From: Methanococcoides vulcani
Lineage (GTDB): Archaea; Halobacteriota; Methanosarcinia; Methanosarcinales; Methanosarcinaceae
Reading direction: 5' to 3'
Assembly: GCF_900111645.1 (NCBI RefSeq)
Contig: NZ_FOHQ01000003.1
Location: 175,803-239,802 of the forward strand
DNA: 64,000 nt
This document shows, one piece after another, positions 35,333 to 44,984 of the stretch. The notes under the pieces are model-generated. The model ran no database searches, was not told where the DNA came from, and saw nothing but the letters and a program-made list of their open reading frames with translations. Position 1 is the stretch's first letter, and the number at the start of each line of letters is the position of its first letter. The position numbers and the translations under genes are program-made.

Positions 35333-35617
35333 TTACTTTTCGAGCTTTTCTTCAACTTCTTTTTTCCCCATCTTTAGTTCATAGTCCTACTGGTCATCTT
35401 CTTTCAGTAACAGTGTCTGGAATTCACCTACGTGGGTCTTTTCTTCTTTTGCAACATCCAGAAGGACCTGTTTTACCTCATTGTTATCTGTAAGAGAAGC
35501 CATTTGCTCATACAGACTGATAGCATCAAGTTCAGCAATTACTGCAGTCCTGAGGATTTCTTTATTAATGTCTTCAGCAGCTACTTTAGAAAGGTCTATT
35601 GGTATCTTCGATAACAT
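35333..35617 (-). CDS. Half-ferritin copy 1 with in-frame UAG (possible pyrrolysine)
   Basis: The conventional frame ends after 76 residues at TAG (35389-35387). The same frame then stays open for 17 codons, DYELKMGKKEVEEKLEK, to TAA at 35335-35333, directly before the AGGAGG of the next gene. The paralogue next door continues well past the equivalent position (DDEYLKVLAEYSLARD), so the tail looks genuine and the full product is 94 residues. Iron-site motifs are the same: IAELDAISLYEQMASL and AKEEKTHVGEFQTLLL. UAG is read as pyrrolysine in many Methanosarcinaceae. Alternatively the UAG is a real, rarely used stop and a short form is made. Confidence 0.75.
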
Positions 35618-36559: not shown

Positions 36560-37581
36560 ATGTTACAAAAGACAATCCAAATTTTATTATTATCAATATT
36601 CCTGATATCGTCCGGTTGCACGAGTTCCACGGGAGACCTTGCAGGGTCTGTAGATAAGATATCTACGGCTGCAGCAGAAGTATCAGGTGCTATAGAAAAG
36701 ATAGAATCCGAACTGAACGAACCAAACGAACCTGCGGAAAACACTCCCTCTGATGTGGATGATGGTAAAGGAACACCTGCAATTGACGATTCAACATCTG
36801 ATATGGATGATCTTCGCATAGGCGCTTTCAACATACAGGTGTTCGGTGTTACTAAGGCATCAAAATCTGATGTCATGATGGTGCTTGCAGACATCGTTCG
36901 CACCTATGATATCATTGCCATTCAGGAGATTCGGGATTCCTCGCAGACCGCACTTCCTGCACTTGTGGATCTGGTGAACAGTGATGGTTCACAATACGAT
37001 TATGTTGTAAGTGAGCGCCTTGGAAGGACTTCCAGTAAGGAGCAATATGCTTATATCTATGACACCTCCGCTGTTGCACTTGCAGGCACACCTGAAACAT
37101 ATCCTGAGCCTGAAGGTACCGATCCGTTCCACAGGCAGCCCATATATCAGCTATTTCAAAGCTTTAGATGGTGATTATGATGCTGTCCTTATGGGTGATC
37201 CATACAGACCCCGATGAGGCTACCGAGGAGATCAATGCTCTTGATGATGTACTTGAATATGCAAAACTGTCCTATCCTGATGAGGGGGATTTTGTCCTTA
37301 TGGGTGATTTCAACGCTGACGGGAATTACTTTGATGAGGACTCTTCCAGTGACCTCGATGATCACTTCTGGCTGATCGATGATAGCTGGGATACTACCAC
37401 TAAAAGTACTGATTATACTTACGACAGGATAGTGCTAACTGATGCTTCTGACTTTAGCGGTGAGCATGGTGTTTTCAGGTATGATCTTGAATATGGCCTT
37501 TCCGAAGAAATGACAGTTGCTGTGTCAGATCACTATCCGGTCTATATGGAGGTCAGTTGCTACGGGGATAGTGACCTGTGA
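36560..37581 (+). pseudogene. DNase I-like (endonuclease/exonuclease/phosphatase) lipoprotein with two frameshifts
   Basis: The reading passes through three frames. Frame 1 (36560-37138) has lipobox SSGC with Cys20, an acidic linker, then the DNase I fold LRIGAFNIQVFG and IIAIQEIRDSS and on to DPFHRQ. Frame 2 (about 37139-37190) continues PYISYFKALDGDYDAVL. Frame 3 (about 37192-37581) resumes VIHTDPDEATEEINAL, FVLMGDFNADG and VSDHYPVYMEV. All catalytic blocks (QE, GDFNAD, SDHYP) survive, so loss is recent or the shifts are sequencing errors. A string TGTCCTTATGGGTGAT occurs at the second break and again near 37291, so local copying may have caused it. An exported nuclease or phosphatase would be expected. 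Confidence 0.75.
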
Positions 37582-44106: not shown

Positions 44107-44135
44107 CCCCTTCATATTCTTCCAGAGGTTCAAAT

Positions 44136-44984
44136 ATGCCACACGTTATGGAGATCCTTGGAAAAACAAGGGTTGTGGTCGAGGACGGAAAGGTTGTCGA
44201 AGTTGGTTAGCCACAGCTCCAATGGTGCCCTCTTTTTGAAAAAGCAAGAGGTATCAAAGAAATTACTTGCGAAGCTGTAAAGGAGAACATGGAGTTTCGC
44301 ATAAAGGATTTCGGTCTTTTTACTGAGGACCGTAAGCTTGAGATGGACGTCTTTGTGGGTTTCGGTGCTTCTGAAGTTATGATGACCGGCCTGAACCGTG
44401 ACCTGCTGGATACCACAATAACCGTGTGCGATGGTGCCGGAACTGTAATTAGCAATAATCCAACTCTTGTTCAGGGAATGGGTGCAAGGATATCAGGTCT
44501 TGTAGAGACCGAGCCTATTGATAAAGTCATCAACGGTATCGAGGACAGGGGTGGCATCGTGCTCGATCCTTCAAATGCAACTATTGATCCTGTAGGCGGC
44601 GTTCTGAAAGCCAGTGATCTTGGCTTCAAGAGGATTGCAGTTACTGTGGTCGACCCTGCTACTGCAAGGACCCTTCGTGAGATCGAGGAAGAGAATGACC
44701 TTGAGCTTATGATAATCGGTGCGCATACAACAGGTCTTGGCAGGGAAGAAGCTCTTGAGATCATCAAGCATCTCGACATTGTCACTTCCTGTGCTTCAAA
44801 GAACATAAGGGATGCAATAAGACCTCTGGCACAGGTAGGCACTGCTGTGCCTTTATTTGCACTTACTCAGAAAGGAAAGGAGCTTTTGCTTGAGCGTGCC
44901 AAGGAAGTAGAAAGCCCGATACTTGTAAACACAATGCCTTTACCAGTGCTTCCTGAAAAGAAGCAGCCGAAAGATCTTGTCTGA
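44136..44984 (+). CDS. Methanogenesis marker protein 8 with internal UAG (possible pyrrolysine)
   Basis: The frame starts at ATG 44136 (AGAGGTTC upstream), reads VMEILGKTRVVVEDGKVVEVG, meets TAG at codon 25 (44208-44210), and continues PQLQWCPLFEKARGIKEITC into the long frame to TGA 44982-44984: 282 residues in all. Residues on both sides of the TAG fit the known N-terminus of this family, in which VVEVG is followed by a polar residue and a CPLF-type segment. Translation from the next in-frame ATG (44289) would lose 51 conserved residues. UAG is therefore most likely read as pyrrolysine. Family function is unknown; it is confined to methanogens and relatives. Downstream motifs include GARISGLVETEPI and DPSNATIDPVGGVL. 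Confidence 0.85.

Follow-up and report, generated by a model that had tools for sequence, protein, structure and literature searches.

The marker protein 8 gene and its in-frame TAG

The window, the whole 64,000 nt stretch of Methanococcoides vulcani DNA that was analyzed, carries a gene for methanogenesis marker protein 8 whose reading frame contains a single TAG. From the ATG at 44136 the frame reaches this TAG at codon 25 and then continues for 257 open codons to a TGA at 44982-44984. The features of the locus, in window positions, are:

44136..44984, + strand: methanogenesis marker protein 8 (DUF2099/TIGR03275), 282 residues with UAG counted as an amino acid
44208..44210, + strand: in-frame TAG at codon 25, proposed to encode pyrrolysine; GAG or GAA in 10 of 10 congeners
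44124..44129, + strand: Shine-Dalgarno-like AGAGGT upstream of the start; AGAGG/GAGG kept across the genus
44280..44291, + strand: internal AAGGAG and ATG (44289), a rival restart site; K-E-N-M coding sequence, kept across the genus

In profile searches, the read-through product matched TIGR03275 with 374.9 bits (cut-off 232.7) over positions 1-259 of the 259 in the profile, and PF09872 with 379.7 bits; both matches span the codon 25 TAG without a break, and homologous sequence is present on both sides of it. The start codon at 44136 and the AGAGG/GAGG motif upstream of it are kept in all ten congeners, which indicates that the 24 N-terminal codons are real. A sequence-only reading of this DNA had described a frame that opens at 44136 behind its own AGAGG site, meets TAG at codon 25 and goes on for 257 codons of family-like sequence; its coordinates and motif were verified, and the full-length TIGR03275 and PF09872 matches across the TAG bear out the family resemblance.

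This gene is the sole full-length copy of marker protein 8 in the genome (99.95% complete), the only other match being a stretch of 44 residues that scores 23 bits and contains a stop. Among the family genomes, the 86 that are at least 90% complete and no more than 5% contaminated all keep marker protein 8.

Codon 25 in related genomes

Alignment of marker protein 8 from relatives, a check proposed in the sequence-only reading that came out in its favor, showed GAG at codon 25 in the four nearest species and GAA in the other six congeners, with Glu, Asp or, rarely, Asn at this position in the wider family. TAG was found in one of 51 aligned loci (some of which represent the same genomes taken from two collections) and a sense codon in the other 50, including those of the ten congeners. 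Across these 51 loci the TAG is not conserved among orthologs in the way that it is for the functional pyrrolysine of methylamine methyltransferases. The ancestral codon is GAG, and the simplest history would be one G-to-T change, from GAG to TAG, private to one species.

The dN/dS of marker protein 8 against the congeners is 0.05-0.09. Before codon 52, the gene differs from that of the nearest relative by synonymous changes, except at E25 and at one other site (Q29K), where the change was assigned to the nearest relative's side. On the M. vulcani branch there are 11 nonsynonymous and 26 synonymous changes, compared to 6 and 22 in the sister (p 0.57), with no relaxation relative to the sister. 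The dN/dS values would be supportive rather than decisive for translation past the TAG, because the TAG may be young and the selection may mostly predate it.

Pyrrolysine machinery and termination at UAG

The sequence-only reading had named an absence of pyl genes as evidence that would count against pyrrolysine; the genome carries a complete and intact pyl cluster on contig C8:

C8:227208-227279: tRNA-Pyl(CUA), found by ARAGORN
C8:225857-227098: pylS, found by profile
C8:224794-225906 (L065 4794-5906): pylB, intact ORF; by sequence, size and order
C8:223710-224822: pylC, intact ORF; by sequence, size and order
C8:222918-223697: pylD, intact ORF; by sequence, size and order

The three genes identified by sequence, size and order are those that we take to be pylB, pylC and pylD from established knowledge of the cluster. 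The pylB frame ends in TAG, after which 42 more codons are open; these overlap pylC in another frame and are without coding signal. A pylB ending in TAG has also been recorded in M. burtonii, among other species (PMC2933860).

One full-length match above the cut-off is listed in this genome for the archaeal release factor aRF1. Since aRF1 is present and its homolog in Methanosarcina acetivorans recognizes all three stop codons (PMC2933860), some termination at UAG is likely. A second release factor as an explanation was unsupported, as the listed match is a single one. The RNA structure in the 100 nt downstream of the marker protein 8 TAG appeared unremarkable (z -1.63; 14 of 200 shuffles as stable), and the PYLIS element has been reported as not essential (PMC2933860).

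Use of UAG in the genome

Stop codon usage was sampled on 464 kb of the genome, with genes called by hexamer score (n=392). TGA terminates 217 of these genes, TAA 171 and TAG 4, as compared to 56-75 TAG ends expected from out-of-frame or intergenic composition (P 1e-20 to 1e-30). The four called genes ending in TAG are pylB, mtbB, an FrhB-type gene and a ferritin-like gene, and most of these apparent ends are internal TAGs; the TAG of mtbB is the known pyrrolysine site. UAG is almost absent as a terminator in this genome and, given also the conserved sequence after in-frame TAGs in the genes below, is mostly a sense codon.

Interior stops were also compared with the sister species across 351 conserved ORFs (about 107,000 codons), filtered for wrong starts and shadow ORFs. 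M. vulcani had three private interior stops, namely a TAG in marker protein 8, a TAG in the ferritin-like gene and a TGA in a less conserved ORF; the reverse comparison gave one private interior TAG in the sister species and nothing else. These numbers hint at an enrichment of TAG but are too few for proof; that so few such stops turn up over so many codons indicates a low error rate.

Other genes with an interior TAG in Methanococcoides

Three further genes of the genus have a TAG within a conserved frame:

35333..35617 of the window, - strand: ferritin-like (Rubrerythrin/EncFtn-like) protein, private TAG at 35387-35389; CAG in nine aligned congeners
C8:353110-354279 (loci L078-L083): FrhB-type gene, TAG at codon 344; YHS, ferredoxin and FrhB domains
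C8:369515-370006 (loci L088, L089, L091, L092): MarR-type regulator, TAG at codon 50

The ferritin-like gene is a likely second case of pyrrolysine in the window and a close parallel to marker protein 8. Also in the window, an endonuclease-like gene (36560-37581) seems to be split into the overlapping frames 36560-37174 and 37168-37581, perhaps by a frameshift.

In the FrhB-type gene, codon 344 is TAG in six Methanococcoides species and TAT (Tyr) in four, and the FrhB C-terminal domain match runs over the TAG. The 45 residues past the TAG show a dN of 0.00-0.04 versus a dS of 0.26-1.38, and pairs among the six species with TAG differ over these residues by 0 to 4 nonsynonymous versus 6 to 16 synonymous changes, so that purifying selection past the TAG is strong. 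In the MarR-type gene, codon 50 is TAG in four species and TGG, CGG or AAG/AAA (Trp, Arg, Lys) in the rest, a distribution indicating that UAG is gained or lost within the genus; the dN/dS past the TAG, about 0.14-0.22, reflects purifying selection. Together, the FrhB-type and MarR-type genes argue strongly, on comparative grounds, that translation in this clade continues past UAG in genes other than those of the methyltransferases. The FrhB-type gene, for an F420 dehydrogenase beta subunit with a YHS domain, would represent a clade-wide pyrrolysine outside the methyltransferases and is perhaps more interesting than the marker protein 8 case.

Position of residue 25 and fold of marker protein 8

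An AlphaFold2 model of marker protein 8 (mean pLDDT 83.9) places residue 25 in a loop between a strand (residues 19-23) and a helix (residues 32-38), six residues ahead of an invariant Cys-Pro-Leu-Phe. This agrees with the sequence-only reading, which had put the residue between a VVEVG strand and a CPLF segment; its suggestion that closeness to the Cys might matter is not supported, as the TAG occurs in a single species and has taken the place of an acidic loop residue, which looks like drift.

The best PDB matches of the model, ranks 1-12, were all FrhB-type F420/flavin proteins (E 7e-5 to 5e-3, TM 0.33-0.38), and weak Pfam matches to FrhB_FdhB_N were found in 7 of 19 marker protein 8 family members (best E 0.0086). 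A profile comparison against two FrhB sequences gave no significant match, and a sequence search with marker protein 8 found no PDB chains. Marker protein 8 (DUF2099) may thus be distantly related to the FrhB F420/flavin-binding family, which we regard as a lead only.

Interpretation of the in-frame TAG

Taken together, these data make it very probable that the gene yields full-length marker protein 8 with pyrrolysine at position 25, as a near-neutral replacement of Glu. That the UAG is likely pyrrolysine had been suggested by the sequence-only reading, and the pyl genes, the scarcity of TAG terminators and the conservation past shared TAGs all support it. UAG would be decoded by tRNA-Pyl(CUA), onto which PylS loads pyrrolysine, in a species that has nearly ceased to use UAG for termination. 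A G-to-T change would have turned Glu25 (GAG) into TAG in the single marker protein 8 gene, and the ribosome would insert pyrrolysine at codon 25 to give the full 282-residue protein. The exchange would represent near-neutral drift at a loop position and not the acquisition of a catalytic pyrrolysine.

Were the TAG a real stop, marker protein 8 would be a recent pseudogene or only a peptide of 24 residues, which would fit a private TAG that could be young and the presence of a release factor. We consider this very unlikely, given that the protein is found in every relative (at the completeness and contamination thresholds above) and here has its sole copy, that the 257 codons carry no further damage and the branch resembles that of the sister, and that other genes of the clade are conserved past UAG. 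Even less probable would be a stop at codon 25 followed by a restart at ATG 44289, giving a protein of 231 residues. The AAGGAG at 44280-44285 lies closely ahead of this ATG, but it is K-E-N coding sequence common to all congeners without the TAG: the motif before ATG 44289 reads AAGGAGAACATG in ten of the 11 genus genomes and AAGGAGAATATG in one. The shortened product would also be without the three N-terminal strands and, among others, the invariant H3, G9, G18, C31, P32, L33, F34 and R38. We reject the idea that a restart at 44289 has evolved here, the motif arising from nearly invariant K-E-N codons that are kept without the TAG. The sequence-only reading, which had described this start as lacking N-terminal conservation, is to be corrected in that a Shine-Dalgarno-like AAGGAG exists; we see in it no sign of an evolved restart.

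A functional role for pyrrolysine at residue 25 is unlikely. A selected role, whether in chemistry near Cys31 or in linking pyrrolysine supply to methanogenesis, could draw on the location six residues before the invariant Cys-Pro-Leu-Phe; with the TAG private to one species, Glu kept in the ten congeners and E, D or N all occurring at this position across the family, we give it as little credence as the restart. Least probable is that the codon is in truth GAG and the TAG arose by an error in sequencing or assembly. Although TAG and GAG are one base apart, just two other private interior stops were seen in about 107,000 codons of conserved ORFs. One of them is the TAG of the ferritin-like gene, also in the window, and the genus has TAGs that several species share.

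Relation to known systems and implications

The tRNA-His guanylyltransferase of Methanosarcina contains pyrrolysine and represents a neutral appearance of UAG. Marker protein 8 would be a similar case: in a methanogen that uses pyrrolysine, TAG has replaced a sense codon in a conserved housekeeping gene unconnected with methylamine metabolism. It is, however, a different protein in a different genus and known from sequence alone, while the guanylyltransferase, which is mentioned in PMC2933860, has been studied. With MtmB, MtbB and MttB it shares a single in-frame TAG and, probably, decoding by pylTSBCD, and this genome itself encodes an mtbB that has the TAG; however, in these methyltransferases the isozymes conserve the TAG at one position and the pyrrolysine is functional, whereas the marker protein 8 TAG is private and located in a loop. 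For a CobN-like read-through ORF predicted in Methanosarcina acetivorans (PMC1242214), the presumed pyrrolysine likewise aligns with ordinary amino acids in relatives, although the gene and the species differ. A search of one literature library for pyrrolysine in marker protein 8 or DUF2099 found nothing. In 2025, an archaeal "Pyl code" was reportedly described in which all TAG codons are read as pyrrolysine; M. vulcani resembles it in that UAG is nearly lost as a terminator and is a sense codon in many genes. Marker protein 8 is a new instance of a known event, the drift from a sense codon to UAG in a pyrrolysine-using methanogen.

Such genes will be cut short or dropped by annotation pipelines that treat every TAG as a terminator. 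With pyrrolysine in the sole copy of marker protein 8, the whole energy metabolism of this species could be tied to its pyrrolysine supply; this is unlikely, but if true, the pyl genes would be needed even without methylamines. A core methanogen protein would join the few cases of pyrrolysine outside the methylamine methyltransferases and, along with the shared TAGs of the FrhB-type and MarR-type genes, would show that ordinary Methanococcoides proteins gain and lose UAG by drift, as they do sense codons.
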